From: Ferribacterium limneticum
GTDB lineage: Bacteria > Pseudomonadota > Gammaproteobacteria > Burkholderiales > Rhodocyclaceae
Direction: 5' to 3'
DNA length: 64,000 bases
Assembly (NCBI RefSeq): GCF_020510565.1
Contig: NZ_CP075189.1
Coordinates: 248,001-312,000 of the forward strand
Below, in pieces: positions 4,545-59,100 of the stretch; the stretch's first letter is position 1, and each line of letters begins with the position of its first letter. A program made the position numbers and the translations under genes. The notes below the pieces were generated by a model, which was not told the origin of the DNA, searched no databases, and saw only the letters and a list, made by a program, of their open reading frames with translations.

Positions 4545-4573
4545 CCACGGTCGACCGGAAAAAAACATGAAAA
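4545..4573 (+). repeat. Dispersed CGGTCAACCG/A-tract repeat, copy 1
   Basis: Reads CCACGGTCGACCGGAAAAAA then ACATGAAAAC; the core here is a perfect palindrome (CGGTCGACCG). It lies between the ETF-QO stop and yjcH. An upstream CGACCG pairs with CGGTCG around GGAAAATTCC, so this spot could also fold as a hairpin after the ETF-QO gene. Slightly shorter than the other copies. Confidence 0.7.
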
Positions 4574-4623
4574 CCCGAGAACAGCGCAGCAACACAAATT
4601 TATCGGAGTTTCCAGGAGGTCTT

Positions 4624-4938
4624 ATGTCACAACCTAATATCCAGGCGAAGATTCGGAGCAATCCGCGATTCGCCGAACTGGTCGGCAAGCGCACCCGCTT
4701 TGCCATCATTCTTTCTCTCGTCGTGTTGGTGCCTTACTACACCTTCATGTTCCTCGTCTCCACCCAGCCGCAATTGTTTGCGAGCAAGGTGGCAGAAGGC
4801 GGCGTCGTGACCATTGGTTGGCCGATTGCTGCGCTGATCATCGTTGGCGGCTGGCTGCTGACCGGTGTTTACGTCAACCGCGCCAACAGCGAGTTCGACG
4901 AGATCACCGCTGAAGTCCTCAAGGAGGCCCGCAAATGA
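4624..4938 (+). CDS. yjcH: DUF485 inner-membrane protein next to acetate permease
   Basis: The protein has 104 residues with two hydrophobic segments ([20 protein letters not shown] and [20 protein letters not shown]), as in DUF485/YjcH. The ATG at 4624 was chosen because AGGAGG sits seven bases upstream; the frame stays open further upstream to 4525 but through the dispersed repeat. The stop overlaps the actP start by four bases (ATGA), the standard yjcH-actP arrangement. YjcH is a small membrane partner of the acetate symporter; its exact role is not established. Confidence 0.93.
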
Positions 4939-6608
4939 AGCGCTCCCTCTCTGCATTGCTCGCCGGCAGCCTGCTCGCTGTTTCCTTCGCCGTCTTTGCC
5001 GGTCCCGGCGCCATCGAAGGCGTCGAGAAGCAGCCGATCAACGTCAGCGCCATCGCCATGTTCATGATCTTCGTGCTGGCCACGCTCGGCATCACCAAGT
5101 GGGCGGCCGGCAAGACCAAGACGACGGCTGACTTCTACACGGCTGGCGGCGGCATCACCGGTTTCCAGAATGGCCTGGCCATTGCCGGTGACTACATGTC
5201 GGCAGCGACCCTGCTCGGTATTACCTCGATGGTCTACTTCAAGGGCTACGATGGTTTTGTTTATGCCGTCTGCTTCTTCGTTGGCTGGCCGATCATCCTG
5301 TTCATGATGGCGGAACGTCTGCGCAATCTTGGCAAGTTCACCTTTGCCGATATCGCCTCCTACCGCCTCGACCAGAACCGCATCCGCACCTTCGCGGCCA
5401 TCGGTTCGCTGACTGTCGTCTGCTTCTACCTCATCGTCCAGATGGTCGGTGCCGGCCAGTTGATCCAGCTGCTCTTCGGTCTGGAATACAACTATGCCGT
5501 GGTGGTGGTTGGCCTGCTCATGATGGTGTACGTCACCTTCGGCGGCATGACGGCAACGACCTGGGTGCAGATCATCAAGGCCTGCCTGCTGCTCGGCGGC
5601 GGTATCACGCTGATGCTGCTGACCTTGTCGCAATTCGGCTGGTCGCTCGACAACCTGTTCTCGAAGGCCATCGAGTCGCACAAGCTGGGCGAAAAGATGA
5701 TGGCGCCGGGTTCGCTCATGGCCGATCCGGTCTCTGCCTTCTCGCTGTCGCTTGGCCTGCTCTTCGGTACCGCCGGCCTGCCGCACATCATGATGCGCTT
5801 CTTCACCGTGCCGAACGCCAAGGAAGCCCGCAAGTCGGTGTTCTACGCGACCGGCTTCATCGGCCTGTTCTTCCTCGTCACCATCATTCTCGGTGCTGGT
5901 GCTATCACCATTGTCGGTACCAACGGGGCCTTCTTCGAAGGCGGCCAGGTCGGTGGCAAGCTGATCGGCGGCAACAACATGCCGGTCATGCACCTGGCCA
6001 AGGCCGTCGGCGGTGACATCTTCCTCGGCTTCCTGTCGGCCGTCGCCTTCGCCACCATCCTGGCCGTTGTTTCCGGTCTGGCCCTGGCTGGCGCCTCGGC
6101 GATCTCGCATGACTTGTATGCCCGCGTGATAAAGAAGGGTACGGCCAGCAGCGCCCAGGAAATGAAGGTCACCCGCTTTGCTTCCGTTGGTCTGGGTCTC
6201 ACCGCCATCCTGCTCGGCATCGCCTTCAAGGACCAGAACGTGCTGTTCCTCGTCGCGCTCGCTTTCGGCGTCGCCTCGTCGGTCAACTTCCCGGTCCTCA
6301 TCCTGTCCATGTACTGGAAGGGCCTGACCACCCGCGGCGCACTCTGGGGCGGCATTGCCGGCCTGGTTTCGTCGGTTGGCTTGGTTGTCCTGTCCCCGAC
6401 CGTGTGGGTCAAGATTCTCGGCAACAAGGTCGCCATCTTCCCGTACGACCACCCGGCCATCGTTTCGATGACGCTCGCCTTCTTCGTCACCTGGCTGCTT
6501 TCGGTCACCGACAAGAGCGCCCGCGCCGCCCAGGAGAAGGAAGCCTACGAAGAGCAGTACATCCGTGCCCAGACCGGGCTCGGCGCTTCGGGTGCGCACG
6601 CGCACTAA
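4935..6608 (+). CDS. actP: Cation/acetate symporter
   Basis: The protein has 557 residues and about 13-14 hydrophobic segments, matching the sodium:solute symporter family. It begins with a cleavable leader (ending [11 protein letters not shown]) as in E. coli Act[28 protein letters not shown] includes the family signature for the first half of the transporter. It takes up acetate and related small monocarboxylates at the inner membrane. The gene overlaps yjcH by four bases and ends before a strong intrinsic terminator at 6662-6685. Acetate uptake fits the acyl-CoA and PHA genes around it. Confidence 0.94.
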
Positions 6609-6661
6609 GTCACTCTGCGGGTGAGATACGGGAGAACAGTGCCCGCCGTCTCATTCCTTTC

Positions 6662-6685
6662 GGGGCCTTCGGGCCCCTTTTTTTA
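6662..6685 (+). terminator. Intrinsic terminator of yjcH-actP
   Basis: A stem GGGGCC-TTCG-GGCCCC is followed by seven T residues. It lies 54 bases after the actP stop and directly abuts copy 2 of the dispersed repeat. Confidence 0.9.
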
Positions 6686-6720
6686 TTTCAAAATCGGGCA
6701 TTTTTTCCGGTTGACCGTGG
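6685..6720 (-). repeat. Dispersed repeat, copy 2
   Basis: On the minus strand it reads CCACGGTCAACCGGAAAAA, then a variable stretch and GATTTTGAAAT. It sits between the actP terminator and the next kinase gene. Confidence 0.85.
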
Positions 6721-6805
6721 GGTTTTTATCTTTTTGTGAGGTCTAGTACTTTTGGCAGAGTTACAATAGAAAAAGAGCCTCCGTTTTGAGGGGCGAAAGG
6801 AGAGC

Positions 6806-9598: not shown

Positions 9599-9610
9599 TG
9601 GGTCAGGAAA

Positions 9611-9645
9611 TTTCATTTTTGCGCCTTTTTTCGGGTTGACCGTGG
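9611..9645 (-). repeat. Dispersed repeat, copy 3
   Basis: Minus-strand reading CCACGGTCAACCCGAAAAAA then GGCGCAAAAATGAAAT. It lies between the two hybrid kinase genes, in the orientation opposite to their transcription. Confidence 0.85.
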
Positions 9646-9734
9646 AAGGAGCGATGTGCCGGAAGAATCACCAGCAAGGCGGAGCGAAGCATTAGAATCG
9701 TCTTCCCGCCTTCCCGTAATTCAGTGACTGCCTC

Positions 9735-12809: not shown

Positions 12810-12858
12810 ATCAGGCCGGATGTGCCGGGCGGAGCGAGGTGCTTGGCGTCGCCCGGGA

Positions 12859-12893
12859 TTTCATTTTTGCGCTGTTTTTCCGGTTGACCGTGG
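12859..12893 (-). repeat. Dispersed repeat, copy 4
   Basis: Minus-strand reading CCACGGTCAACCGGAAAAA then CAGCGCAAAAATGAAAT. It lies between the convergent kinase and ClpX-like genes. Confidence 0.87.
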
Positions 12894-12909
12894 GAACACG
12901 GCCGGCTTC

Positions 12910-14206: not shown

Positions 14207-14207
14207 C

Positions 14208-17675: not shown

Positions 17676-17716
17676 AAATGGGCGTCTTGCCGTGTGGCAG
17701 ACGCCCATTTCATTTT
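17676..17716 (+). terminator. Intrinsic terminator of gpmI
   Basis: A perfect 12-bp stem (AAATGGGCGTCT / AGACGCCCATTT) with an 11-base loop is followed by CATTTTTT. The last arm runs into copy 5 of the dispersed repeat. Confidence 0.9.
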
Positions 17717-17742
17717 TTGCGATTTTTTCCGGTTGACCGTGG
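17708..17742 (-). repeat. Dispersed repeat, copy 5
   Basis: Minus-strand reading CCACGGTCAACCGGAAAAA, then ATCGCAAAAAATGAAAT. It overlaps the end of the gpmI terminator between two convergent genes. Confidence 0.87.
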
Positions 17743-17766
17743 CAACCGGTCGGCAGCCAGAAAAAA

Positions 17767-18420: not shown

Positions 18421-18484
18421 ACAAAAAAAGAAGCCCGCACGGGGCGGGCTTAAATCCATTTCTTGGAGGAGATGGAGGAGACAA
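18421..18484 (-). ncRNA. Candidate anti-Shine-Dalgarno small RNA downstream of the phasin gene
   Basis: The minus strand shows a sigma-70-like promoter (18490-18518), then about 30 bases of C/U-rich sequence starting TTGTCTCCTCC and containing a second CTCCTCC. It ends in a stem AAGCCCGC / GCGGGCTT followed by a run of seven T. The phasin terminator at 18616-18647 separates it from the phasin transcript. The 5' part is complementary to ribosome sites: GGAGACAA of the phasin gene, GGAGGAGACA of the HAAT binding protein at 40041. No protein-coding frame fits the transcript. The call rests on promoter plus terminator plus motif; expression is untested. Confidence 0.5.
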
Positions 18485-26265: not shown

Positions 26266-27354
26266 TCAATTCGTCCCGGCGGTCTTGCCCGCCCATTTGC
26301 GTCGGTAGTGTACCGGTGCCATGCCGGTCCATTCGACAAAGGCACGATAAAAGGCCGATGTGTCGGCGTAGCCCAGATCGGCGGCAACCTGGGCAATCGA
26401 ATCCTTGCTCTTGGTCAGGCGGGCCAGCGCCATGTCGCGGCGCAGGGCGTCCTTGATGCCGCGAAAGCTCGAACCTTCTTCTTCGAGCCGGCGGTGGATG
26501 GTGCGCGGCGAGAGGTAGAGACGGTCGGCGATGTCGTCGAGGCTCAGCGTGGCGGGCAGGGCGGCGCGCAGCAGGTCGCGGACGCGGATCACCATTTCGC
26601 GGTCGCGCCGATAGAGCATCGTGATCTTGCCCGGGGCGCCCTCGAGGAAGGTGGTTAGCGCCGCGTCATCGCGGCGGATGGGCAGGTCGAGCAGGTTGGC
26701 GTTGAAGCTGGCGACCAGCGTGCCGACGCCGCCGGGAACGGTCGGGGCGAAGCGCGAATCCTCGGTGAAGATCAGCGGGTAGTCGGCCGAGTGGGCCGGT
26801 CGGCGGTAGGGGAAAATGACGCTGTCGAGCCCGATGCCGCGCCCGGCCAGCCAGCAGGCCAGGCCGTGCAGCAGGCGAAGCAGCCATTCGAAGGCGAAGA
26901 TGCGGCCGGGGTCGTCGGAGCTGTCGGCGAGCTTGCGTGTTTCGGCGATGACCAGCTCGGCATGGCCGTGCGAGCGCCGCACGCTGACCGCCAGATCGGG
27001 CAAGACGACATGCAGGAAACGGCTGGCCCGGTTGAGCGCGTCGGCAAGGGTCGGTGCGCTGAGGCAGCCGCGGCACAGGAACTCGAAGCTGCCGATGCGC
27101 ATGGGCTGGGCGAACAGGCCGAAACCCTCGTCGTCGAGCTCACGGTTCAGTCGGTTGTAGAGGGCGGCGTAGCGGTCGATGGGAATCCGGCTGGCGGTGT
27201 CTGCAATATTGATCCCGGTGGCGGCGAGCAGGGGGGCTGGGTTGATCTGGCGGCGAGTCAGGCCGGCCAGCATTCCGGTAACAAAACCCATTGCAACAGT
27301 GGCTTGCGTTCGGGCTGGGGATTCCTGGTTGGTGCTATGCAGCATTTTGGCCAT
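26266..27354 (-). CDS. AraC family transcriptional regulator
   Basis: About 362 residues. The N-terminal two thirds match the Arabinose_bd/OruR-like sensor domain ([35 protein letters not shown]). The C-terminal 100 residues hold two helix-turn-helix motifs ([20 protein letters not shown] and [20 protein letters not shown]). Start candidates are ATG 27354 and ATG 27345, both inside a dispersed repeat copy that supplies the start codon. The gene is divergent from icmF, so it may regulate it. Confidence 0.9.
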
Positions 27355-27373
27355 TTTTTCCGGTTCACCGTCG
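27343..27373 (-). repeat. Dispersed repeat, copy 6, covering the AraC start codon
   Basis: Minus-strand reading CGACGGTGAACCGGAAAAAA then TGGCCAAAATG; both possible ATG codons of the AraC gene lie inside it. The core has one change (CGGTGAACCG) but keeps the CGGT/ACCG half-sites. Confidence 0.75.
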
Positions 27374-27485
27374 CACTGTATCACCTTGGCGGAATTTGCA
27401 CGATTGTCGTCATTCGCAACAATGGCGCCGTGCCAAAAGCGGCCTACCATGGGCGCCTTTCCCCCTTATCGTTGAGGCAGGCGTC

Positions 27486-30939: not shown

Positions 30940-32265
30940 ATGAACCATGCGGATCTCGCTTCCTGCCTACAGTCCAACCGCATTACCCGTCGCCAGGTGC
31001 TCTGGATGCTCGGCGCCAGCGCCCTGTCGGGCTGTGCCACCTCGCCGGTCGGGGGCGGTTCCATCCTGGTCGGGATGAGCGAAGACGAGGAAAAGGCCGT
31101 AGATCAGAAGGTGGCGCCGCAACAGTTCTCGCAGGATCTGGGGGCGGTGCAGGATGAGGCCATCAACCAGTACCTGAGCGATGTTGGCCGGCGTCTGGAT
31201 GCCAAGGTGCATCGGCCGCAGATGCCGTATTCCTACCGCGTACTCAATGCCAACTACGTCAATGCCTACACCTTCCCCGGCGGGGCGATGGGCGTGACGC
31301 GCGGCATCCTGGTCGATCTCGACGACGAAGCCGAACTGGCGGCGCTGCTCGGCCATGAGCTCGGTCACGTCAATGCCCGTCACGCCGCGCAGCGGCAGGG
31401 CCAGGCGATGGTGACGCAGGCGGCGATGACTGGCGTGAACATCATCGGTACCGCTGCCGGGTTCGGCGGCCTGACCGACCTGGGCACCCAGCTCGGGGCC
31501 AGCGTGCTGCTCTCCAGCTATTCACGCGACAACGAGCGCGAGGCCGACGCGCTGGGGCAGGAATACATGGTCCGGGCCGGCTATCCGGCCAGCGGCATGG
31601 TCGGCCTGCAGCAATTGCTGGTCGAACAGCAGAAGGAATCGCCGGGGATGTTGCAGACGATGTTCTCAACCCACCCGATGAGCAGTGAACGGCGTGACTC
31701 GGCGAAGCAGCTGGCTGAGAGCAAGTACGCGACGAGCAACAAGCGCGACGCCGGGCGTGAGCGTTTCATGGACAACACGGCCTCACTGCGCCGTATCAAG
31801 CCGACCATCGACGCCTGCCAGAAAGGCGAAGTGGCGATGGCGGCCAAGGAGTACGGCAAGGCCGAGGAGCGTTTCCGCACGGCCTTGAAGGCCACGCCAC
31901 ACGATTACGCAGCCAATGTGCTGATGGCGAAATGCCTGTCGGAACAGGACAAGGATGCCCAGGCCCTGGAATACGCCCAGACGGCGACCCGGGTTTATCC
32001 GCAGGAAGCCCAGGCCCACAAGCTGGTCGGTGTGCTGGCGCTCGGTCAGAAGGATCCTGGCATGGCTTTCGAGCATCTCGATCGCTATGACCGGCAGTTG
32101 CCCGGCGATGCCGGCGTGACCTTCCTGAAAGGGATTTCGCTGGAAGGCATGGGCAAGCGGCCGGAAGCTGCCAAACAGTATGCCGCCTATCTGCAACGCA
32201 CGCAGCAGGGCAAGGCCGCGGAGTATTCGATTAGCCGCTTGAAGAGCTGGGGCTATCTGAAATGA
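30940..32265 (+). CDS. M48 family metalloprotease lipoprotein with TPR repeats
   Basis: A 441-residue protein from ATG 30940. The N-terminus has twin arginines and a lipobox (ITRRQVLWMLGASALSGC), pointing to a lipoprotein possibly exported by Tat. The zinc protease motif HELGH is at about residue 138 (ALLGHELGHVNARH), with the third ligand in the NEREADALGQEY segment. The C-terminal 150 residues look like TPR repeats. It matches BepA/LoiP-type periplasmic proteases that maintain outer-membrane assembly. The frame is open upstream to 30649, across the icmF end, without family match. Confidence 0.9.
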   Translation: MNHADLASCLQSNRITRRQVLWMLGASALSGCATSPVGGGSILVGMSEDEEKAVDQKVAPQQFSQDLGAVQDEAINQYLSDVGRRLDAKVHRPQMPYSYRVLNANYVNAYTFPGGAMGVTRGILVDLDDEAELAALLGHELGHVNARHAAQRQGQAMVTQAAMTGVNIIGTAAGFGGLTDLGTQLGASVLLSSYSRDNEREADALGQEYMVRAGYPASGMVGLQQLLVEQQKESPGMLQTMFSTHPMSSERRDSAKQLAESKYATSNKRDAGRERFMDNTASLRRIKPTIDACQKGEVAMAAKEYGKAEERFRTALKATPHDYAANVLMAKCLSEQDKDAQALEYAQTATRVYPQEAQAHKLVGVLALGQKDPGMAFEHLDRYDRQLPGDAGVTFLKGISLEGMGKRPEAAKQYAAYLQRTQQGKAAEYSISRLKSWGYLK

Positions 32266-32289
32266 TTCTGGCCCTTTATCCCGGCTGAC

Positions 32290-34203
32290 TTAGCGGCTTG
32301 AGCCGCCATGCCAGCGGAGGACCAGAATGGTCAGGTCGTCGACCGGCAACTGCGTCGCTTCGAAGCTGCGCACACTGATGCGCAGGGCTTCGGCACAGGT
32401 CGCCACCGGTGTTTGTGCCGACTGGGCGGCGAGTGACTGGAGCAGGCGCTCGGTGCCGAAAAAGCTCTGGCCGTCGGTTGCCTCGGTGACGCCGTCGGTG
32501 AACAGGCAAAGGGTGTCGCCGGGCTCGAGCTGGCGGGTGACAGCCCGGAACGGATAATCCGGGACACCACACATCGGTGGCCCAAGCGCCTCGCCCAGGT
32601 CGATCCGTGATAGTGCCCCGTGGCGAAGCAGCACCGGCGCGTCGTGCCCGGCCGAGACGAAACACAGCTCGCCGCTGACGATGTCGAGAACGGCGATGAA
32701 GGCAGTAACGAACAGCATTTCCGGGTTGTTTCGATCCAGCTCGTTGGCGACTTCCCGCACCGCGGCGCCGAGATCTTTGCTCAGTCTCGCCATGCTCGCA
32801 GCCAATGCCTTGGTCATGGCCATGAAGAGACTGGCGGGGACGCCCTTGCCCGAGACATCGGCCACCGCAAAGCAGATCCGGCGTTCGTCGAGCCGGAAGC
32901 ATTCGTAATAATCACCGCCGACTTCGCGGGCCGGTTCGAGGATGGCCGCTATCGAAAAGCGGGTTTCGCCGGCAAAGCTGGTTGCCAGGTCGGGGAGCAG
33001 GCCCATCTGGATACGGCGCGCCGTATCGAGTTCGCCGGCCAGGCGTGCTGCTGCTTCGCGGGTTGCCAGCAAATCGCGTTCCGCTTTCTGGCGCCGGCGT
33101 TCGGCGGTAATGTCCGAGCCCACTCCGCGCCAGCCGGTAATCGTGCCCGCCGCGTCGGTCAGCGGCTTGCCGCTCAGCGACCACCAGCCGATTTCTCCGG
33201 CCAGCTCGATGGGCACGACAATGTCACGAAACGGCGTGGCTGAACCAAGGGCGTCCTCAAGTTGCGTAAAGGCTTGCCGCCCCTCGGCGTCCGCCGACCC
33301 TTTCCGGCCGAGCAGGGCGATCGACAGCGGCTGGGTGTGCAGGGCGGCAACTGGCATGCCCAGGGTGTCGGCCAGTCGCGTCGAAATGTGGCGCAAACGG
33401 CCCTGTTCGTCGGTTTCCCACAACCAGTCGCTGGCATCGTCCTCGAAGTCGTTGAGGAGCAGACCGATGACCTGCTTTTGCCGCTCCACTTCGCTTTCTG
33501 CGATCAGGCTCTTGACGAACAGGCGGGAGGTGATGAGCACCGAGGCAACGACCGAAATGCCGTAGAGCGAGAGGAGGATGGCGAGATAGACATAGGTCAT
33601 GCCATAGAGGAGGAGCATGGTGACCGTCCCGCCGACACACATGGCAGCGCCCCACAAAGCGCCAGCCCATGGCCAGCGGGCGGTGTGGAAAGCGCCGTGG
33701 GGAATGGCCGTGGCAAAAAAGGCGGTGACCAATATCTGGCCGGTGATGTTGGTGCGGCCGAACAGATAGGCCAGCATGACCGCGAAGAGGAGGCCGGAGA
33801 TGGCGACCGAGGCAGTCAGCAGGCGAACGGCACGGGCACAGGCTTGATGGTTGGTTTCGGCCTTGTTGCGTTGCCAGATGATCAGGCCGGCGCCGGAGCT
33901 GGCCCAGACCGCGGCGCACCAGCCGATAAGCAGGCCGGGCGTGGCGTCCGCCCAGAAAATCCAGGCGTAGATGAGCGAGCAGACCATGCAGTCGAAGGCG
34001 CTGACCGGCATTTGCTGGAGCAAGGCGCGGAACTGCCGGAAACGATGGACGGCGGCGACATCGGCCGGTGCATCGGGGTCTCGCCAGCAGTAGGACAGTT
34101 TGCGCCAGCTCGACATCAGGCCGCTGGCGTTGAGCAGGGTAGTTAGGCGTCCCGAGTCGTCGGGCAGGTTTTCCGTTGACGGCGTGGCGTTTGAGTGGGG
34201 CAC
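32290..34203 (-). CDS. Membrane PAS-SpoIIE (PP2C) serine phosphatase
   Basis: A 637-residue protein. The N-terminal third has about six hydrophobic segments (GLLIGWCAAVWASSGAGLII, YLAILLSLYGISVVASVLI). A PAS domain follows (about 250-370, DWLWETDEQGRLRHISTRLA), then a coiled linker and the RsbU/SpoIIE phosphatase domain with VGGDYYECFRLDERR, ADVSGKGVPASLFMA and SAGHDAPVLL. Such enzymes dephosphorylate anti-sigma-factor antagonists in partner-switching pathways. No partner gene is adjacent. The stop lies 24 bases from the convergent M48 gene. Confidence 0.9.
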   Translation of the reverse strand: MPHSNATPSTENLPDDSGRLTTLLNASGLMSSWRKLSYCWRDPDAPADVAAVHRFRQFRALLQQMPVSAFDCMVCSLIYAWIFWADATPGLLIGWCAAVWASSGAGLIIWQRNKAETNHQACARAVRLLTASVAISGLLFAVMLAYLFGRTNITGQILVTAFFATAIPHGAFHTARWPWAGALWGAAMCVGGTVTMLLLYGMTYVYLAILLSLYGISVVASVLITSRLFVKSLIAESEVERQKQVIGLLLNDFEDDASDWLWETDEQGRLRHISTRLADTLGMPVAALHTQPLSIALLGRKGSADAEGRQAFTQLEDALGSATPFRDIVVPIELAGEIGWWSLSGKPLTDAAGTITGWRGVGSDITAERRRQKAERDLLATREAAARLAGELDTARRIQMGLLPDLATSFAGETRFSIAAILEPAREVGGDYYECFRLDERRICFAVADVSGKGVPASLFMAMTKALAASMARLSKDLGAAVREVANELDRNNPEMLFVTAFIAVLDIVSGELCFVSAGHDAPVLLRHGALSRIDLGEALGPPMCGVPDYPFRAVTRQLEPGDTLCLFTDGVTEATDGQSFFGTERLLQSLAAQSAQTPVATCAEALRISVRSFEATQLPVDDLTILVLRWHGGSSR

Positions 34204-34324
34204 TGGCGTTCGGGCCTGGAGTCTGGCGCTGGTTAAGCAAAGGTCATCAGGGTATCTGAATCGGGAAGCGAAATACCGTCGACCATTTCACGCCTTGTGC
34301 CATGTCGCGTCGGCTCGGGCCATT

Positions 34325-34357
34325 TTGATTTTGGCCGCTTTTTCCGGTTGACCGTGG
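34325..34357 (-). repeat. Dispersed repeat, copy 7
   Basis: Minus-strand reading CCACGGTCAACCGGAAAAA, then GCGGCCAAAATC. It begins three bases after the stop codon of the Crp/Fnr gene. Confidence 0.88.
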
Positions 34358-34360
34358 GAA

Positions 34361-35035
34361 TCAGTCGCCGAAGCTGCGCAGCCCGTCGAGGTCGAGAATG
34401 TTGATGCCGCCGTACTCGCTGCGCACCAGCCCGGCGTCTTCGAGCACCTTGAGCGCCTGATTGGCCCGTTGTCTTGAAACACCGGCCAGATAGCCGAGTT
34501 CTTCCTGCGAAATCTGCAGCAGGCGGTTGGTACCGGGGTAGAGCACGGGGTTGAACAGGGCGGCCAGGCCGCGCGCGATGCGGGCATCGGTGTCGAGCAT
34601 GCGCTCGTTTTCGATCATGCCGATGAACTGGCCGAGGCGCTCGTTGAGCTGGGCGATCATGTAGCGGTTGAACGGGATGCTGTGGTCGAGCAGCCACAGG
34701 AAGGTGGCGCGGCTCATGAAGGCGACGCGCGTTTCGCGGATGGCCATGACGTCGTAGCGGCGCGCTTCGCTCTTGAGCAGTGAGCCTTCGCCGAACCAGC
34801 CGCCAGTGCTGATGCCGGTCAGCGAAGTGGTCTTGCCGGTCGTCCAGTGGCTGGCCATCTTGCCCAGGCCGTCGATGATGCCCATCCAGTAATCGACTGG
34901 CTCGCCCTTCATGCAGATGAAGGCGCCCGGCGCGAAGCTGCGTTCGAAGGTGCCGGCCAGCGCCCTGGCCATTTCCTCGGCGCTCAGTGCCGGGCCCCAG
35001 ACGGAGGTGCGAAGGAGTTCTTCGGCGTTTTTCAA
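34361..35035 (-). CDS. Crp/Fnr family transcriptional regulator with TTG start
   Basis: About 224 residues. The cyclic-nucleotide-binding-like domain (FAPGAFICMKGEPVDYWMGI, GGWFGEGSLLKSEARRYDV) is followed by a C-terminal winged helix with the recognition segment ISQEELGYLAGVSRQRANQA. No ATG gives a full domain. TTG 35035 (LKNAEELLRTSVWG) was chosen because homologues begin near this point, AGGAAA lies upstream, and a TATAAT box sits 31 bases further. The N-terminal cysteines of Fnr are absent. It is divergent from the ligase/ABC transporter operon and may control it. Confidence 0.88.
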   Translation of the reverse strand: MKNAEELLRTSVWGPALSAEEMARALAGTFERSFAPGAFICMKGEPVDYWMGIIDGLGKMASHWTTGKTTSLTGISTGGWFGEGSLLKSEARRYDVMAIRETRVAFMSRATFLWLLDHSIPFNRYMIAQLNERLGQFIGMIENERMLDTDARIARGLAALFNPVLYPGTNRLLQISQEELGYLAGVSRQRANQALKVLEDAGLVRSEYGGINILDLDGLRSFGD

Positions 35036-42264: not shown

Positions 42265-42410
42265 TCGGTTGCAGTGCGCGTTCCATGGCGGCGTTGTCGG
42301 CCGGCTTGTTGGCAGGAGCCAACGGCGCCGGCCTCCGCCTTGCCCTGAAACGCTACTTTGCAACCGTCGTGCTGTGTTCCTCATGGCTGAGAGGGCATCA
42401 AACCCAAATG

Positions 42411-42445
42411 CCACGGTCAACCGGAAAAAACGGAGAAAAATGAAA
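42411..42445 (+). repeat. Dispersed repeat, copy 8, ending on a start codon
   Basis: Reads CCACGGTCAACCGGAAAAAA then CGGAGAAAAATGAAATG; the final ATG is the start of the PaaK-like gene, and CGGAG inside the repeat is its only visible ribosome site. Confidence 0.87.
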
Positions 42446-43674
42446 TGAGCTATTACGACCCGCTCGAGACCCGCGATCCGGATGAGCGCGAGGCGGATTT
42501 GATGGACAAGCTGGCGCGTCAGGTGGCGCATGCCAAGGAAACGACGCATTACTATTTTCAGTCGTTGGCCGGGGTCAACCCGTTTGAATGTGCGACGCGC
42601 GAGGCGCTGGCCAAACTGCCGCTGACCCGCAAGCGTGACCTGATCGAGTTGCAGAAAAAGACGCCGCCATTTGGCGGCTTGAATGCCTTGCCGCGACACA
42701 AAGCCAAGCGGGTGTTCGCGTCGCCCGGGCCGATCTACGAAATGCAGGGCAAGGACATTGATTCGTGGCGCATGGCGCGCGTGCTGTACGCCGCCGGTTT
42801 TCGCGACGGCGACCTCGTGCACAACTGTTTTTCCTACCATTTCACGCCGGGCGCTTTCCTCATGGAAGGCGGCGCCCGCAAGCTCGGCTGCGCGGTCTTT
42901 CCCGGCGGCACCGGGCAGACCGAGCAGCAGGTGCAGGCGATGGTCGATCTCAAGCCGGAAGGCTATGTCGGCACGCCGTCCTTCCTGCGCATCATTGTCG
43001 AGAAGGCCGAGGAAATGGGCGCCGACATCAGTTCCTTGCGCAAGGCCTGCGTTTCCGGTGAAGCCTTGCCCGGCGTTACTCGCCAGTGGCTCAACGAGCG
43101 TGGTATTTCGGTGCGCCAGTGTTACGCGACGGCGGACATCGGCGCCATCGCCTACGAAACCGAGGCTCAGGAAGGTATGGTCGTCGAGGAGGAAATCCTC
43201 GTCGAAATCGTTCGTCCGGGCACCGGTGATCCGGTCGAGCCGGGCGAGGTCGGCGAAGTTGTCGTCACCACCTTCAATCCGGATTACCCGTTGATCCGCT
43301 TCGCCACCGGCGACCTGTCGGCCATCCTGCCCGGCCGTTCGCCCTGTGGCCGCAGCAATATCCGCCTCAAGGGCTGGATGGGCCGCGCCGATCAGACGAC
43401 CAAGATCAAGGGCATGTTTGTCCACCCCGAGCAGGTCGCCCAGATCGCTGCCCGCCATCCGGAAATCCACCGCATGCGGCTGGTCGTCGACAACCCGGGC
43501 GGTCAGGACCGCATGGTGCTGCATTGCGAAATCGAAGCCGGCCACGAGGCGCTCGACAAGGCCTTGGTCAACAGCCTGCGCGAAGTGACCAAATTGCGCG
43601 GCGATGTGGCATTTGTCACACCGGGGGGCTTGCCCAATGACGGGAAGGTGATCGAAGATAGCCGGATCTATTGA
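42445..43674 (+). CDS. PaaK-like (phenylacetate-CoA ligase family) protein with altered P-loop
   Basis: A 409-residue protein of the phenylacetate-CoA ligase family. It has YPLIRFATGDLSAIL and the C-terminal motif GRADQTTKIKGMFVHPEQV, which includes the usual catalytic lysine region. The ATP-binding P-loop SSGTTGKP is replaced by FASPGPIYEMQG, as in a known subgroup of PaaK homologues. It follows the HAAT transporter genes on the same strand, so an activated-acid function linked to the imported compound is likely, with the substrate unknown. The start codon is supplied by a dispersed repeat copy. Confidence 0.88.
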   Translation: MSYYDPLETRDPDEREADLMDKLARQVAHAKETTHYYFQSLAGVNPFECATREALAKLPLTRKRDLIELQKKTPPFGGLNALPRHKAKRVFASPGPIYEMQGKDIDSWRMARVLYAAGFRDGDLVHNCFSYHFTPGAFLMEGGARKLGCAVFPGGTGQTEQQVQAMVDLKPEGYVGTPSFLRIIVEKAEEMGADISSLRKACVSGEALPGVTRQWLNERGISVRQCYATADIGAIAYETEAQEGMVVEEEILVEIVRPGTGDPVEPGEVGEVVVTTFNPDYPLIRFATGDLSAILPGRSPCGRSNIRLKGWMGRADQTTKIKGMFVHPEQVAQIAARHPEIHRMRLVVDNPGGQDRMVLHCEIEAGHEALDKALVNSLREVTKLRGDVAFVTPGGLPNDGKVIEDSRIY

Positions 43675-44192: not shown

Positions 44193-44220
44193 CCGCCGGC
44201 GTTTGGCTTCCGGGCTGTTC

Positions 44221-44256
44221 CTACGGTCAACCGGAAAAAAGCGGCAATTTTGAAAT
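44221..44256 (+). repeat. Dispersed repeat, copy 9
   Basis: Reads CTACGGTCAACCGGAAAAAA then GCGGCAATTTTGAAAT. It lies between the secreted protein and the convergent sugar dehydrogenase gene. Confidence 0.87.
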
Positions 44257-44287: not shown

Positions 44288-45400
44288 CTAATCCGCGACC
44301 AGCTTGAGCAGTTGTCCCTTGCCTTCGTCGGTCAGCAGGTAGATCGTCCCATCCGGCCCCTCGCGGACATCGCGCACGCGCTGGCGCAGGCCGGTGAGCA
44401 GCTTCTCTTCGCGGACGACCCGGCTGCCATCCATCTCCAGTCGGGCCAGATAGTCGAATTTGAGCGAGCCGACGAGCAGGCTGCCGCGCCAGGCCTTGCC
44501 GTAGCGCTCGCTGCGCACGAAGGTCATGCCGGATGGCGCAATCGACGGCACCCAGTAATGCAGCGGCTGCTCCATACCGGCCTTGCCGGTCAGGCCATCG
44601 CCAATCGCGCCGCCGCCGTAATTTTCACCGTAGGTAATGACCGGCCAGCCGTAATTCTTGCCCGGCTCGGGGCGATTGATCTCGTCGCCGCCCTGCGGGC
44701 CGTGCTCGTGCATCCACAGGCGGCCGTCCGGACCGAGCGTCGCGCCCTGGCTGTTGCGGTGGCCGTAGCTCCAGATTTCGGGCAGTGCGCCGGGCCGATT
44801 GACGAAAGGATTGTCGGCCGGAACGCTGCCATCCTTGCCGATGCGGACGATCTTGCCGTGATGGTTATCGAGTTTCTGGGCGTCGGCCATGCGCGAACCG
44901 CGTTCGCCGAGGGTCAGGAAAAGCTTGCCATCGTCTGCCTCGACGATGCGGCAGCCAAAATGCAGGCGGCTGCTGATCTTGGGTGTTTGCCGGAAGATCG
45001 TCGTCACTTTTTCCAGCCGTCGGGCATCGGCGGAAAGGCGGGCCGAGGCGAGCGCCGTCGAATTGCCCCTGCCCAGCGCCGCTGGCTCGGCGTAGCAGAA
45101 ATAAATCATCCGGTTGCGGGCAAAATCGCGGTCGGCCACGACGTCGAGCAAGCCGCCCTGACCGGTGACCTCGACCGCCGGCAGTCCGTCCACCGGGGTG
45201 CCGACCTTGCCGTCGGCGGTAATCACGCGCAGGCGGCCCGGGCGTTCGCTGACCAGCATCCGGCCGTCGCCGATGAAGGCCAAACCCCACGGGTGGTCGA
45301 GTCCGCTGGCGACGACTTCGACGCGAAGTTCACCACTTTCCGCCGCCAGCGGCAGTGCCGTCAGGGCCGCGAGCAAGATGGCGAGCAGGGGCTTCGGCAT
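44288..45400 (-). CDS. PQQ-dependent sugar dehydrogenase-like protein (YliI/Asd family)
   Basis: A 370-residue protein from ATG 45400 (MPKPLLAILLAALTALPLAA) with a signal peptide. It is a six-bladed propeller of the glucose/sorbosone dehydrogenase family: GLDHPWGLAFIGDGRMLVSE, GQGGLLDVVADRDF, IWSYGHRNSQGATLGPDGRL, WMHEHGPQGGDEIN and NYGWPVITYG. These enzymes oxidise aldose sugars in the periplasm using PQQ. The ATG was chosen over the longer frame because the upstream part is the dispersed repeat and the end of the SPFH gene. Confidence 0.9.
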   Translation of the reverse strand: MPKPLLAILLAALTALPLAAESGELRVEVVASGLDHPWGLAFIGDGRMLVSERPGRLRVITADGKVGTPVDGLPAVEVTGQGGLLDVVADRDFARNRMIYFCYAEPAALGRGNSTALASARLSADARRLEKVTTIFRQTPKISSRLHFGCRIVEADDGKLFLTLGERGSRMADAQKLDNHHGKIVRIGKDGSVPADNPFVNRPGALPEIWSYGHRNSQGATLGPDGRLWMHEHGPQGGDEINRPEPGKNYGWPVITYGENYGGGAIGDGLTGKAGMEQPLHYWVPSIAPSGMTFVRSERYGKAWRGSLLVGSLKFDYLARLEMDGSRVVREEKLLTGLRQRVRDVREGPDGTIYLLTDEGKGQLLKLVAD

Positions 45401-45434
45401 TTCGATTTTGGCGATTATTTCCGGTTGACCGTGG
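45398..45434 (-). repeat. Dispersed repeat, copy 10, the entire stop-to-start gap
   Basis: Minus-strand reading CCACGGTCAACCGGAAATAA then TCGCCAAAATCGAAATG. The SPFH gene stop is three bases upstream and the final ATG is the sugar dehydrogenase start, so the repeat is essentially the whole intergenic gap. Confidence 0.9.
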
Positions 45435-45437
45435 GAA

Positions 45438-46307
45438 TCAGCCGGCGATCTTGCCGCGTCCAAACAAGCCCTTGACGGCTTCCTGCAGGTCGGCCGGGAG
45501 CACGATGACTTTGGCGTTGTCCTTCTCGCCCATGCGCTCCAGCGCGGCGATGTATTTTTCGCCGAGCATGTAGGACATCGGCCCGGTCTTGTCACCGATC
45601 GCGGCAGTGATACGGCGGATCGCTTCGGCCGAGGCTTCGGCCAGCATGACTTGGGCGTTGGCGTCGCGCTTGGCCGATTCCAGCCGCGCCTCGGCTTCGA
45701 GAATGGCCGATTGCTTTGCCCCTTCCGAACGGGTGACGACGGCCTTGCGTTCCCGCTCGGCGGCGGCCTGCATTTCCATAGCCTTCTGCATCGACTGGGA
45801 GGGCTTGATGTCCTGGATTTCGACCGACTTCACGGTCAGACCCCAGTCCACCGCCTCGTCGGCAATGCTTTCGCGCAGCCGGGCCTTGATCTTGTCGCGC
45901 GACGACAGCGCCTCGTCAAGCTCCATTTCGCCGACGATGGAGCGCAGCGTCGTCATGATCAGGTTGCGGATCGCTTCGGAAAAATCGGTCACGCCATAGA
46001 CCGCCTTGACCGGATCGGTGACCTTGATGAAAGCGATGGCGTTGGTCAGGATCACCGCGTTGTCGCGGGTGATGACCTCCTGCTCCTGGACATCGAGGAT
46101 GATGTCCTTGGTCACCAGCTGGTAGGCCACCTTGTCGAGGTAGGGGATGACGATGTTGAGGCCGGGCTTGAGCGTGCCGTGGTACTTGCCGAGCCGCTCG
46201 ACGATCCATTCCTCGCCCTGCGGCACGATGCGCACGCCTTTGGCGATGGTGACGACGACAAAGACCAGAATGGCCAGCGTGACGATAAAACCTGCGTTCA
46301 AGTCCAT
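45438..46307 (-). CDS. SPFH/band 7 membrane protein (paraslipin/QmcA-like)
   Basis: A 289-residue protein with one N-terminal membrane segment (FIVTLAILVFVVVTIAKGVR) and the SPFH domain (GEEWIVERLGKYHGTLKPGL, DIILDVQEQEVITRDNAVIL). A coiled-coil region follows (AMEMQAAAERERKAVVTRSE). It forms membrane microdomain scaffolds with NfeD partners; the NfeD gene ends 12 bases upstream on the same strand. The typical pair acts in membrane quality control. Confidence 0.94.
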   Translation of the reverse strand: MDLNAGFIVTLAILVFVVVTIAKGVRIVPQGEEWIVERLGKYHGTLKPGLNIVIPYLDKVAYQLVTKDIILDVQEQEVITRDNAVILTNAIAFIKVTDPVKAVYGVTDFSEAIRNLIMTTLRSIVGEMELDEALSSRDKIKARLRESIADEAVDWGLTVKSVEIQDIKPSQSMQKAMEMQAAAERERKAVVTRSEGAKQSAILEAEARLESAKRDANAQVMLAEASAEAIRRITAAIGDKTGPMSYMLGEKYIAALERMGEKDNAKVIVLPADLQEAVKGLFGRGKIAG

Positions 46308-46760: not shown

Positions 46761-46817
46761 GTTTTTCTCCTTTGCCCGGCGAGTATTTCGGGTTTGCCGG
46801 GCAGGGTCAAGGCGGAT

Positions 46818-46851
46818 TTCAGTTTTGGCCAATTTTTCCGGTTGACCGTGG
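46818..46851 (-). repeat. Dispersed repeat, copy 11
   Basis: Minus-strand reading CCACGGTCAACCGGAAAAAT then TGGCCAAAACTGAAAT. It lies between divergent NfeD and AEC transporter genes, so it could touch either promoter. Confidence 0.88.
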
Positions 46852-46893
46852 AAGTCGCCAATTGCTCCCCGGCACAGCGATTAAAATGCGCCG

Positions 46894-52070: not shown

Positions 52071-52086
52071 CCATCAACCGAGACGA

Positions 52087-52121
52087 TTTCAATTTTGGCC
52101 GAAATTTCCAGTTGACCGTGG
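52087..52121 (-). repeat. Dispersed repeat, copy 12
   Basis: Minus-strand reading CCACGGTCAACTGGAAATTT then CGGCCAAAATTGAAAT. It lies at the lower-coordinate edge of the cassette array. Confidence 0.85.
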
Positions 52122-52155
52122 AAACGCCAAGCCTACTGGTTTTGGGGGAGATATT

Positions 52156-54817: not shown

Positions 54818-54825
54818 CTTTTGTT

Positions 54826-54906: not shown

Positions 54907-54925
54907 GTGATGGTGGGAGCCGGCG

Positions 54926-55192: not shown

Positions 55193-55484
55193 CGACCTCT
55201 TCCTCTGGGGGAATACGTTCAATTACCCATTCGGAATTGATATCAGCGCGCGTTGCTTGCCACCCTGGTTCAAGAATTGCAAGGCCGGCCATAGAAGGAT
55301 CAACCTCGAGAATGTGCCCTAAGCCGACAATGCACAAATCATCGAGTTCTTCGCTCTCATTGTCCAAAAATTGCCATCCATGATCATCTTCGTCGTGGGA
55401 GACGTTAAGTATTGGCTTCCGTTTCTCAATAATACTGTTCGAGACAACGGTCGCGCAGTTCGGAGGTTGGTCAAACGGCCACAT
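55182..55484 (-). CDS. Cassette protein, hypothetical (MWPFDQPPNCA family)
   Basis: A 100-residue acidic protein (MWPFDQPPNCATVVSNSIIE). The opening MWPFDQPPNCA and the VSHDEDDHGWQFLDNES segment are, from memory, shared by a family of small proteins of unknown function found near mobile elements. Its stop codon overlaps GTTAGGT (55181-55187), an attC-core-like sequence. No function can be assigned. Confidence 0.75.
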   Translation of the reverse strand: MWPFDQPPNCATVVSNSIIEKRKPILNVSHDEDDHGWQFLDNESEELDDLCIVGLGHILEVDPSMAGLAILEPGWQATRADINSEWVIERIPPEEEVDAT

Positions 55485-55488
55485 ATGA

Positions 55489-55578
55489 ACCTAACGTTGA
55501 AGGTAAGGGGCGCTGCGCGACGGTTTATCGCGCAGCGTCCAGCGACCGAAGGGAGCGGCCTTGACCGCAGTGTTAGAA
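55489..55578 (-). other. Integron attC site 6
   Basis: Minus-strand first core TTCTAAC (complement of 55572-55578), last core GTTAGGT. About 90 bases with the CGCTGCGCG / CGCGCAGCG stem. It is the attC site nearest the upstream end of the array. Confidence 0.92.
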
Positions 55579-55579
55579 A

Positions 55580-55594
55580 GGTTTGCCGGGAAAG
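55580..55594 (+). repeat. 15-bp array-edge duplication, higher-coordinate copy
   Basis: GGTTTGCCGGGAAAG, identical to 52056-52070, starting two bases after the attC 6 core. Confidence 0.8.
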
Positions 55595-55682
55595 CGGCGC
55601 TGCAAGCGAACGGCACGCAGCCGCGACCGGCGCTGACAACCGGAAACCGCCAAGCAGCCGGGAAGCAGCCCAGCCTCGAAGG

Positions 55683-55717
55683 TTTCGTTTTTGGCTGAAA
55701 TTTCCGGTTGACCGTAG
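55683..55717 (-). repeat. Dispersed repeat, copy 13, inside the array
   Basis: Minus-strand reading CTACGGTCAACCGGAAATTT then CAGCCAAAAACGAAA. It shares the A/T variant GAAATTTC with copy 12 at the other array edge. Confidence 0.83.
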
Positions 55718-55857
55718 CAAACGAGACAGCGGCTGAGCCGGGCCCGTAAAACCCGGAAGCAGCCTGCCGGAGGCACCCCACGCCGAGCCGGACTGGTGAA
55801 ACCAGCACACTGCGGAGAGAAGGCGAGAGAAGCTTGAACACCATAATGGACAGAACC

Positions 55858-55864
55858 TTCTAAC
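55858..55864 (-). other. Solitary integron core site
   Basis: GTTAGAA on the minus strand with no second core or stem upstream. It marks the upstream limit of the array and could be a remnant of attI or of a cut attC. Confidence 0.45.
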
Positions 55865-56118
55865 TAGTAGTAGACGACAAAACTGTCGCCTAATCCGGAA
55901 ATCTGTCCAATAAGCTGGCGGACAGGACGGCAGGTTTCGCTTGCACGGTGGCTGATTTCGACATTTAGCTGGATATCCATGCAGTATTTTGTCGCCATGA
56001 AACCGGACGCTTCCATTTCTCCTCCCGAAATGCCCATGGGGACAATTTGCAGATCGTCCGGTCGGGGTGTTGCTTTGCCGAAACGATCATTTACAGGGCG
56101 ACAGCATACGGAGCGCAT
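55864..56118 (-). CDS. Possible small protein at the array edge
   Basis: An 84-codon frame (later part MEASGFMATKYCMDIQLNVE, ends GLGDSFVVYY). It has several internal Met codons and no clear ribosome site, and no family was recognised. Its TAG overlaps the solitary core site. It may be a genuine small cassette-type gene or a chance frame. Confidence 0.35.
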   Translation of the reverse strand: MRSVCCRPVNDRFGKATPRPDDLQIVPMGISGGEMEASGFMATKYCMDIQLNVEISHRASETCRPVRQLIGQISGLGDSFVVYY

Positions 56119-56180
56119 GAATTAATGTCGAGTGGGTATGGCGTATTTCCGGGGAACCAGAAGGCAAGCGGAGGCGTGTT

Positions 56181-59100
56181 TCACGCGATCTGCCGCGACG
56201 CCTCCCGTCGGTCAGCTACCTTCGCCGCCGCCTCGCTGCGCACCGGCCCAAATCCGCGCACCTCGGCCGGCCAGTTGGCGAGTGCGATGAGTTCCGGGCT
56301 TGGGCTGTGCCCGGCGATGAAATCAAGGTCGCTTTCGTAGTCGGCGAGTAGCTGGCGGTCGAGCCTGTTTTCTTCGCTGTTTTTCCACGGATCGAGCCAA
56401 CTGCCGCGCCAGCGGCGGGCCTTAGCCATTGCCTTGAATACCGGCAGCACCCAGGCGCCGAAGCGGATTTTCTTCGGGCGGCCGTCCGGGCCGGGGCGGG
56501 TGAGTCCGGGCGGAGCGAGGTGGAAGCTCAGGCGCAGGTCGCCGTCGAAGCGCTCGTTCATGCTCTTCAGGAAATCGGTCTGGGCGTACAGGCGGGCGAC
56601 TTCCCAGGCGTCTTTGGGGGCGAGCAGGCGGGCGTATTGGGTGGCGACGGCGCGGGTCAGGTCGTCGTTGCCGAGGCGGCGGATGGCTTCGACGCGGTCG
56701 GTGTAGCGGGCGGCGAGGGTGGCGTCTTGGTAGGCGGTGAGGTGGTCGACGCGGCTGGCGATGAGTTCGTCCAGCGTTTGTTCCGGCAAGGGCTGGCCGG
56801 TGAGCGGGCCGGCGATTTTGGCGACTTTTTCCGGGTCGACCGCAGCACGCCGGCCCCATTCGAAAGCCTGGCGGTTGGCGTCGACGGCGGCGCCGTTGAG
56901 TTCGATGGCGCGGTCGAGGGCGGCGGCGGAAACGGGGACGAGACCGAGTTGCCAGGCGTAGCCGAGGAGCAGCATGTTGCCGTAGAGGGCGTCGCCCATC
57001 AGGCGGTTGGCAAGATGCTGGGCGTCGATGAACTGGACGTGATCGGTGCCGAGGGTGTCGGCCAGTTGCGTCTTGAGCCCGGCCAGCGGGAAGTGCCAGT
57101 CGCGGTTGCGCGTGAAGTCGGCGGTTGGCGTGTCGGTGCAGCTGACGACGGCGCGCGTGCGGCCTTCGAGCATTTTCGACAGGGCTTCGGTGCTGGCGCT
57201 GACGACGAGGTCACCGCCGAGTACGGCGTGCGCTTCGCCGGTGGCAATGCGGGCGGCGTGGATGTCTTCCGGTCGGTCGGCGATGCGCAGGTGGGAGAAG
57301 ACGGCGCCGTACTTTTGCGCCAGGCCGGTCATGTCGAGGGTCGAAATGCCCTTGCCGTCGAGGTGGGCAGCCATGCCGATGAGGGCGCCGAGGGTGATGA
57401 CGCCCATGCCGCCGACGCCGGTGATGAGGAGGTTGTAGGGCTGGGCTGTGGACGGCAGTTTGGGCGATTTCAAAATTGGCCAATTTTCCGGGTTGACCGT
57501 AGGACTCGCTCCTTTTTTCGGTTTGCCGCCTTCGATGGTGACGAAGCTCGGGCAGAAGCCTTTGACGCAGGAGAAATCCTGGTTGCACGACGACTGGTCG
57601 ATCTGGCGCTTGGTGCCGAAGGTCGTTTCGACCGGCACGATGGACAGGCAGTTCGATTGCACGGAGCAGTCGCCGCAACCTTCGCAGACGGCTTCGTTGA
57701 TGACGACGCGCTGGGCGATGGCCGGCAGCTTGCCGCGTTTGCGCCGGCGGCGGGCTTCGGTGGCGCAGACCTGGTCGTAAATCAGCACGGTGACGCCGGG
57801 TTCTTCGCGCAGTTCGCGCTGGACGGCGTCGAGTTCGTCGCGGTGGCGGATCGGGACGTTGGGGGCGAGGTCGGTGATTTCGGCGTACTTGGCCGGATCG
57901 TTGGTGACGATGACCATCTTGCCGACGCCCTCGGCTTCGAGTTGGCGCGTGATGCGGGCGACGCTCAGGATGCCGTCGACGGGCTGGCCGCCGGTCATCG
58001 CCACGGCGTCGTTGTAGAGAATCTTGTAGGTGATCGGCACCTTGGCGGCGATGGATTGCCGGATGGCCAGGATGCCGGAGTGGAAATAGGTGCCGTCGCC
58101 GAGGTTGGCGAAGATGTGCTTTTCGGTCGTGAAGGGCGCCTGGCCGACCCAGGGCACGCCTTCGCCGCCCATGTGGGTGAAGGTTGACGTGCTGCGGTCC
58201 ATCCACGTCACCATGTAGTGGCAACCGATGCCGGCGACGGCGCGCGAGCCTTCCGGGACGCGGGTCGAGCTGTTGTGCGGGCAGCCCGAGCAGAAATGCG
58301 GCTTGCGCTCGGCGAGCACGATGGGCGTCAGCGCCGCCTTTTGTTTGCTTTCAATCAGCGCGAGGCGGGCGGCGATGGTCGGCGAGGTGAAGAAACGGCC
58401 GATGCGTTCGGCGATGACGCGGGCGATGGTGGCGACCGGCAGTTCGCCGGTGGCCGGCAGCAGCCAGTGGCCTTCGGACTGCATTGGCGTCCATTCGCCG
58501 ATCTCGTCGAACTTGCCGATAACGCGCGGGCGGACATCGTCCTTCCAGTTGTACAGCTCTTCCTTGAGCTGGTATTCGAGCAGTTGGCGTTTTTCCTCGA
58601 CGACCAGGATTTCCTCCAGCCCTTCGGCAAAATGGCGGACGCCTTCCGGTTCGAGCGGCCAGACCATGCCGACCTTGAACAGGCGGATGCCGATTTCGCC
58701 GGCCAGAGCGTCGTCGATGCCGAGTTCGTCGAGGGCCTGGCGGACGTCGAGGTAGCTCTTGCCGGCAGTCAGAATGCCGAGGCGCGGGGCGGGCGAGTCG
58801 ATGATCAGCTTGTTCAGCCCGTTGGCCCGGCAGTAGGCCAGCGCGGCGTAGAGCTTGTGGTTGAGCAGGCGGGCTTCCTGGACCAGCGGCGGGTCGGGCC
58901 AGCGGATGTTGAGACCGTCCGGCGGCAATTTGAAATTGGGCGGAAAAATCGGGTTGACCGTAGCAGGGTCGATGCTGACTGAAGCCGAGGTCTCGACCGT
59001 GTCGGCCAGCGCCTTGAAGGCTACCCAGCAGCCCGAATAGCGGCTCATCGCCCAGCCGTGCAGGCCGAAATCGAGGTATTCCTGGACATTGGCCGGGTAG

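Follow-up and report, generated by a model that had tools for sequence, protein, structure and literature searches.

A widespread 40-bp repeat of Ferribacterium limneticum and its congeners is probably a DNA uptake sequence

Copies of the motif in the window

The stretch of Ferribacterium limneticum DNA analyzed here (64,000 nucleotides; assembly GCF_020510565.1, contig NZ_CP075189.1, positions 248,001 to 312,000 of the forward strand; hereafter the window) carries many copies of a dispersed motif, which we discuss as a candidate DNA uptake sequence. With an iterated position-specific matrix and a threshold of 16 bits, the window yields 17 copies (Table 1). All 14 copies listed in the original prediction are among them, recovered within a few bases of where they had been placed; the additional three are those at 594–633, 56810–56849 (weak), and 58928–58967. 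A degenerate copy had also been suspected at 32262–32292, but the best score there is −19 bits, and it is not a copy.

Table 1. Motif copies and other features of the window
Feature	Position	Strand	Score or composition	Context
Motif copy	594..633	+	40.7 bits	in frame inside electron-transfer flavoprotein alpha-subunit gene (141-1070)
Motif copy	4541..4580	+	32.9 bits	intergenic
Motif copy	6685..6724	-	53.1 bits	intergenic
Motif copy	9610..9649	-	55.3 bits	intergenic
Motif copy	12858..12897	-	57.1 bits	convergent intergenic gap
Motif copy	17707..17746	-	59.6 bits	convergent intergenic gap
Weaker motif copy	27338..27377	-	31.7 bits	divergent gap
Motif copy	34322..34361	-	55.4 bits	3' end of Crp-like regulator gene (34361-35035)
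Motif copy	42407..42446	+	56.9 bits	overlaps ribosome-binding region of AMP-binding-enzyme gene at 42445
Motif copy	44217..44256	+	55.5 bits	convergent gap
Motif copy	45399..45438	-	60.4 bits	between sorbosone-dehydrogenase-like gene and Band 7 gene
Motif copy	46816..46855	-	60.3 bits	divergent gap
Motif copy	52086..52125	-	57.6 bits	one edge of AT-rich segment
Motif copy	55682..55721	-	52.2 bits	other edge of AT-rich segment
Weak motif copy, TGCGGTCGAC dialect core	56810..56849	-	20.6 bits	in pyruvate-ferredoxin-oxidoreductase-like/DUF6537 gene
Motif copy	57467..57506	-	54.3 bits	in pyruvate-ferredoxin-oxidoreductase-like/DUF6537 gene (56181-59639), length-variable linker
Motif copy	58928..58967	-	42.0 bits	in pyruvate-ferredoxin-oxidoreductase-like/DUF6537 gene (56181-59639)
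AT-rich segment	52126..55681		51.5% G+C vs window 61.2%	without motif copy
Betaproteobacteria toxic small RNA (Rfam RF02278)	18425..18483	-	above gathering score	

Structure and abundance of the motif

Aligned copies define a unit of about 40 bp with sharp ends, in which the core TNCYACGGTCAACCGG is followed by three A/T-rich tracts (approximate consensus ATTSCYACGGTCAACCGGAAAWWWNGSCCAAAWTTGAAAT, with the core near-invariant). Counting the first C of CGGTC as +1, the tracts occupy positions +12 to +17, +23 to +28, and +30 to +33. The centers of the first two are 11 bp apart, and A and T interchange within the tracts. At both edges, conservation falls to background in 107 aligned copies. The unit had first been described as about 36 bp with one or two A-tracts; it is slightly longer than this and has a third A/T-rich tract. 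Its information is divided between the 18-bp core part and the 22-bp tail, with about 24 bits in each. The total of 48 bits, a figure inflated because the hits were selected at 18 bits or more, compares with 13.3 bits required for locating the sites.

The matrix was seeded with exact cores, iterated, and applied at a threshold of 16 bits to an 864-kb sample of the genome, consisting of the window and 40 evenly spaced 20-kb stretches. This sample contains 175 matches, about one per 4.9 kb, versus none in the reversed sequence and none with five column-permuted matrices. In the complete 4.15-Mb genome the 15-mer CGGTCAACCGGAAAA has 272 exact copies, 136 on each strand, and the reversed pattern has none, so that the repeat occurs in both orientations, as first reported, and is not confined to a few copies. 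A 27-base pattern allowing up to three mismatches is found 10 times in the window and not once in 100 dinucleotide shuffles. A chance origin of the motif is excluded, and scaling from the sample we would expect some 840 copies per genome. Perfect 12-mer cores (90 in the sample) exceed cores with one mismatch (63). The copies are dispersed: only one pair in the sample lies within 300 bp, and counts per 20-kb stretch (mean 3.95, variance 5.54) vary slightly more than Poisson.

Placement in genes, gaps, and base composition

Called genes enclose 91 of the 175 matches, gaps hold 73, and 11 are partial, against 76, 20, and 4%, respectively, for random 40-mers. Intergenic matches are thus in excess of the random expectation. 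The original statement that nearly all copies are intergenic holds for the 14 first listed (13 in gaps or overlapping a gene by 1–2 bp, one genic) but not for the larger sample. Strong matches are intergenic in 63 of 125 cases, and weak matches are genic in 39 of 50. Genes were called with our own caller, trained on long GC-rich open reading frames (ORFs). Because it tends to miss AT-rich ORFs, intergenic fractions of AT-rich DNA are overstated; because the AT-richest tiles hold no copies (see below), the intergenic enrichment of the motif is conservative.

Among gaps of 45–600 bp, convergent ones carry a copy in 15 of 31 cases, tandem ones in 29 of 177, and divergent ones in 8 of 69; the convergent excess over either other class is significant (p about 0.0002, unique-gap test). 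Copies favor 3' ends, without promoter excess. Those within genes are compatible with the codons they occupy, chiefly in four of the six frames, and encode peptides such as ATVNPEK and FRLTV.

Motif density also rises with G+C content (Spearman 0.77, p = 9e-9; 40 stretches of 20 kb). In 5-kb tiles there are no matches in the 18 tiles below 54% G+C and 140 in the 97 tiles of 60–66%. Because the motif itself is rich in A/T tracts, low G+C content alone should not exclude it, and recent acquisition is a likely reason for the bare DNA. We limit our claim to low G+C content, which is only a proxy for foreign origin, because Pfam shows no mobile genes among ten of the called genes in the bare stretches L043, L044, L061, and L064 and because some of these are core genes, such as lon and clpX. 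The AT-rich segment of the window, whose two edges are framed by motif copies, carries small genes, DUF695/RraB-like and pentapeptide-repeat.

Origin of the copies

Of the in-gene copies, 88 were queried by protein against samples of seven relatives, a gap-free ortholog test of the kind described for the uptake signal sequences (USS) of Pasteurellaceae in part of an earlier paper (PMC1626085). An alignment crosses the site for 24 of the 88, and 23 of these 24 are gap-free in a relative; counted by alignment, 24 of 27 have no gap. In the motif-poor genomes G060 or G069, all 11 aligned genic sites have a gap-free alignment. Within gene 56181–59639, site 56810 has no gap in any of 30 orthologues, and all but four of the 30 align without a gap at site 58928 (26 of 30). 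At the latter site, differences between the dialects described below are visible. The sequence is ACGGTCAACCCGATTTTT (Thr-Val-Asn) in all eight A-dialect genomes and TGCGGTCGACATCGTTTTA (Ala-Val-Asp) in G021 and G070; the motif-poor G018, G009, G076, and G098 carry neither. Among the gap-free rows, Thr is confined to the eight genomes of the A dialect, and the remaining 18 have Ala, as though the motif had been pulling an amino acid along.

These alignments show that the genic copies arose in place by substitution. It is in genes that such an origin is best shown because intergenic sites are less clean. Among 29 loci compared at 42407–42446, 15 relatives align across the site, and there is no clean empty site. 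The motif-poor G018 and G099 have homologous sequence of near-equal length with scattered differences; G060 is likewise homologous except that its alignment is interrupted at the upstream edge, where 5–15 bp are gapped in several others. Site 45399 is aligned across in A-dialect relatives only. A clean 40-bp gap, the whole-unit empty site, was found neither at the tested genic sites nor at 42407.

Dialects and distribution

Variants of the core were counted in 76 congener genomes, with dialect labels set by our own count thresholds. The model built from sequence only matches 70 of the 76 at E ≤ 0.01, with six having none, and 18 have at least 87 matches. The form in the window, ACGGTCAACC (A dialect), reaches at least 200 copies in 11 congeners and 581 in the window's genome. 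The TGCGGTCGAC dialect has at least 300 copies in 18 congeners (up to 1256), and the ATGCTACGGTC dialect has 328–468 copies in three, the next best genome having 73. A fourth form, CACGGTCRAC, occurs in samples of G061, where 12 perfect ACGGTCGACCGT palindromes were found in 200 kb, whereas 800 kb from the window's genome contain none; some of the palindromes in these samples (L198–L207) lie inside TTTTCACGGTCGACCGTGAAAA, possibly doubling as terminators. When motifs were re-estimated from core-only seeds in G061 and G030, A/T tracts appeared at the same distances (71 versus 0 and 109 versus 1 matches, respectively, against reversed controls). The copies listed for G029 and G082 also show the tracts, but these were found with the A-dialect matrix, which favors them. 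The CGGT..ACCG dyad, originally put forward as a feature of the core, is not kept in the ATGCTACGGTCGGC dialect and hence is unlikely to be the functional principle.

Dialect labels cluster phylogenetically. In a tree of gene 56181–59639 from 30 genomes, a gene that itself bears motif copies and a sample without the G061 type and the ATGCTACGGTC genomes, the eight A-dialect genomes form one supported clade. The labels require six changes on the tree, against 15.5 when shuffled, and none of 200 shuffles was as low. On the same tree the seven TGCGGTCGAC genomes need four changes and the 12 motif-poor genomes five. The motif-poor lineages may have lost the motif or may never have had it.

Across the order, the motif is found essentially only in this genus, as judged with the A-dialect model. 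Among 200 genomes at E 0.001, with 33 candidates per genome scored (a search in which remote dialects would be missed), the matches were the window's genome, its congener G065, and a single one of 21.8 bits in G118. Four genomes of other genera of the family gave no motif match. Among the matches listed for an exact 38-base pattern are Azonexus, Dechloromonas, Azonexaceae, and Rhodocyclaceae metagenome-assembled genomes, and others vaguely named. A phage or plasmid origin was rejected, at least as far as IMG/VR is concerned: the exact 15-mer occurs in just 27 contigs there, 26 of them with a single match.

In G069 and G060, motif discovery on 200-kb samples returned nothing, the iteration drifting to codon patterns. 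Even so, the model matches G069 56 times, and this genome carries a full copy at its ortholog of site 42407, despite low counts of the dialect cores, and G005 has at least 87 model matches but few of the three counted cores, possibly using a further dialect. Both could hold further dialects or remnants. In G061, the seed GACGGTCAC was dropped as a dialect, being a tandem repeat confined to one stretch. Adjoining the repeat that contains it is an array of 42 copies of AAGCCTGAGACGAC (L204, about 3660–5400; 15 bp apart at the array start), which is probably repetitive coding DNA.

Discussion

We think it very likely, from sequence analysis, that the motif is an uptake signal sequence for natural transformation in Azonexus/Dechloromonas (Azonexaceae), built on a plan like that of the Haemophilus USS. 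The repeat as such is genuine and biologically meaningful, and it is widespread within the genus. We favor the uptake reading because the copy number, excess of perfect cores, excess information, origin by substitution, genic copies, bare AT-richest tiles, and clade-specific dialects match the traits of USS and of the DNA uptake sequences (DUS) of Neisseriaceae, as described in parts of three papers (PMC1626085, PMC3630211, PMC12616744). The excess of perfect over one-mismatch cores, in particular, is given as a trait of both in a section of PMC1626085.

The mechanism would run as follows. The core around CGGTC would be bound by a receptor at the cell surface, probably one of the minor type IV pilins, and the A/T-rich tracts, which follow at about one and two helical turns, would aid DNA bending or melting as the retracting pilus pulls the DNA through the outer membrane. 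Motif-bearing DNA would be taken up preferentially, enter via ComEC, be handled by DprA, and recombine with the homologous chromosome. As a consequence of preferential uptake and recombination, alleles that carry or improve the motif would be over-represented in the recombining pool. This drive could build hundreds of near-consensus copies by point mutation at tolerant sites (3' ends, gaps, and permissive codons), and receptor and motif would drift jointly into dialects. The uptake bias, receptor, bending role, and drive are the parts of this explanation that we infer.

As in USS, a core of strong consensus is followed by downstream A/T-rich segments, copies lie in genes and gaps and originate by point mutation, and dialects follow clades. 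The spacing is also similar: the second A/T segment of the Hin-type USS is centered 12 positions after the first, as given in parts of PMC1626085 and PMC12616744, versus 11 here. The TGCGGTCGAC dialect contains GCGGT, as do both USS types (Hin, AAGTGCGGT; Apl, ACAAGCGGT), which may be chance or convergence. However, the cores here match neither type, having CGGTC followed in most dialects by R-A-C; there is a third short tract (GAAAT), the unit spans 40 rather than up to 32 bp, the density is lower, and the host is betaproteobacterial. Like the DUS of Neisseriaceae, the motif has several dialects around a short invariant core, and the palindromic ACGGTCGACCGT copies of G061 are reminiscent of paired DUS. 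A DUS, however, is continuous, measures at most about 13 nucleotides, and has an invariant CTG and no flanking tracts, as portrayed in portions of PMC1626085, PMC3630211, and PMC12616744, and our motif has no CTG core. We do not file the motif as a USS or DUS proper because core and host differ and because biased uptake, the defining functional trait, is a prediction here.

Genes of the competence machinery are present but are not specific to motif carriers. ComEC and DprA families are present in 71 and 75 of the 76 congeners, respectively, and both genes are open in the window's genome. PF16732 (ComP_DUS) exceeds its cut-off in 70 of the 76 congeners and in none of 14 controls. The proteins it matches are variable minor pilins; PDB matches of the protein from the window's genome include geopilin, PilA, PilE, and other pilins. 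We do not claim the ComP_DUS minor pilin as the receptor: family matches are widespread but do not follow motif abundance, and at matched loci the pilins of related A-dialect genomes differ strongly from each other. Loss of comEC was rejected as the cause of motif loss, since split or broken comEC matches occur in some motif-poor genomes (G018, G035, and G088) but also in the motif-rich G002. In two of these genomes about 33 kb separate the pieces of the comEC match, as would be expected after insertion of a large element (G002:C33:109525-144033, in which the small piece is below cut-off, and G088:C1:2218607-2251879, in a motif-poor genome).

A number of observations weigh against an uptake sequence. 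First, the density of about one per 4.9 kb is lower than the approximately one per kb quoted for USS and DUS, and young copied elements, too, typically show a very strong consensus (both in excerpts of PMC1626085). Second, the correlation with G+C content may be compositional, and the bare stretch L044 (54.8% G+C) carries the housekeeping genes lon, clpX, and tig. Third, several sites say little about origin or complicate it. Site 57467 is uninformative, the linker around it having indels in 23 of 30 orthologues, most relatives fail to align across 44217, and at 46816 G066 and G005 align with 23–25 gapped columns in several pieces. Fourth, the difference between tandem and divergent gaps is not significant (p = 0.43), and there is a weak strand preference (74 versus 101, p = 0.05). 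Fifth, motif-poor congeners have ComEC and DprA too, as do 10 and 11 of the 14 controls, respectively; PF16732 scores high in the motif-poor G018 and G069 and lower in the motif-rich G002, G084, G085, and G075; no chain named ComP is among the 24 PDB matches of the window genome's PF16732 protein; and G002 is motif-rich despite its split comEC match. Finally, our literature search found no uptake-sequence or transformation work on Azonexus, Dechloromonas, Rhodocyclaceae, Rhodocyclales, or Betaproteobacteria, and the accessible portion of the Dechloromonas aromatica genome paper (PMC2907700) makes no mention of such a repeat.

Three other explanations should be considered. In the first, a cytoplasmic chromosome-organizing or nucleoid-associated protein binds the sites, which are then selected for chromosome structure. 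Sites of this kind include those of matS-, Noc-, or SlmA-like systems and of IHF-like architectural proteins. Such a protein would be compatible with the sites numbering in the hundreds and lying on both strands, with the phasing of the A/T tracts, with the lack of a promoter excess, and with near-Poisson counts per 20-kb stretch. However, the motif has about 48 bits where 13 suffice, an in-gene copy accompanies a residue change (Thr versus Ala at 58928), the 18 tiles below 54% G+C, where the protein would also be needed, have no copy, and dialects and motif-poor lineages occur inside one genus. We regard this explanation as unlikely.

The second, which we hold to be highly improbable, is a regulon, with the motif as the site of a global transcription factor or as an alternative promoter module. 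The reverse complement does contain TTGACC, a −35-like hexamer, with upstream A/T tracts, and the A dialect has the CGGT..ACCG dyad. But in the 107 aligned copies there is no conserved second box within 40 bp beyond the far side of the core, over half of the matches are inside genes, and the dyad is lost in another dialect. Moreover, copies are most frequent in convergent and least frequent in divergent gaps, and both orientations occur, so that the shared regulatory module of the original prediction is not supported. A promoter or UP-element reading of TTGACC on the other strand was rejected on the same grounds, namely the lack of a second box at a fixed distance and the distribution among gap classes.

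The third would make the motif a small non-autonomous mobile element copied around the genome. Repetitive extragenic palindromes (REP), their doublets (REPIN), and miniature inverted-repeat transposable elements (MITE) are dispersed, of high copy number, and enriched in gaps, traits that the motif shares, and its sharp ends and very strong consensus would also suit such an element, but we find this origin scarcely credible given the gap-free orthologous sites in motif-less relatives, the lack of an empty site at 42407, the codon-compatible, in-frame copies within conserved genes, the indels around 57467 and 46816, none of which is a clean 40-bp insertion, the dialect variation, and tract positions that are degenerate as A or T rather than uniformly decayed. 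Thus, of the three readings that had been offered at the outset (a small mobile unit, a binding site of a nucleoid protein or of the uptake type, and a shared regulatory module), it is the uptake-type binding site that fits most of the evidence.

If the motif is indeed an uptake sequence, its position among such sequences would be distinctive. Neisseriaceae and Pasteurellaceae are named as the only families with such sequences in the available part of a 2025 paper (PMC12616744), and therefore Azonexaceae would be the third, with the first DNA uptake sequence outside the two known families. We also lean toward a broader proposal, in which Azonexaceae would have an independent, third language for uptake of self-DNA that has converged on the USS plan (a GCGGT/CGGTC core with helically phased tracts), changes in receptor and tag would have divided the genus into four or more groups by dialect, besides several non-users, and dialect would hinder gene flow between environmental species.

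An independent third case, this time among free-living bacteria, would help to separate general traits of uptake sequences from those tied to association with a host. With several natural dialects and motif-poor lineages in one genus, the group is suited to mapping the co-evolution of receptor and tag, and the dialects lend themselves to testing whether uptake specificity limits gene flow. If the uptake reading is correct, adding the tag to transforming DNA might make Azonexus/Dechloromonas genetically tractable. For the bacteria themselves, the tag would let cells that pick up stray DNA recognize that of their own kind.

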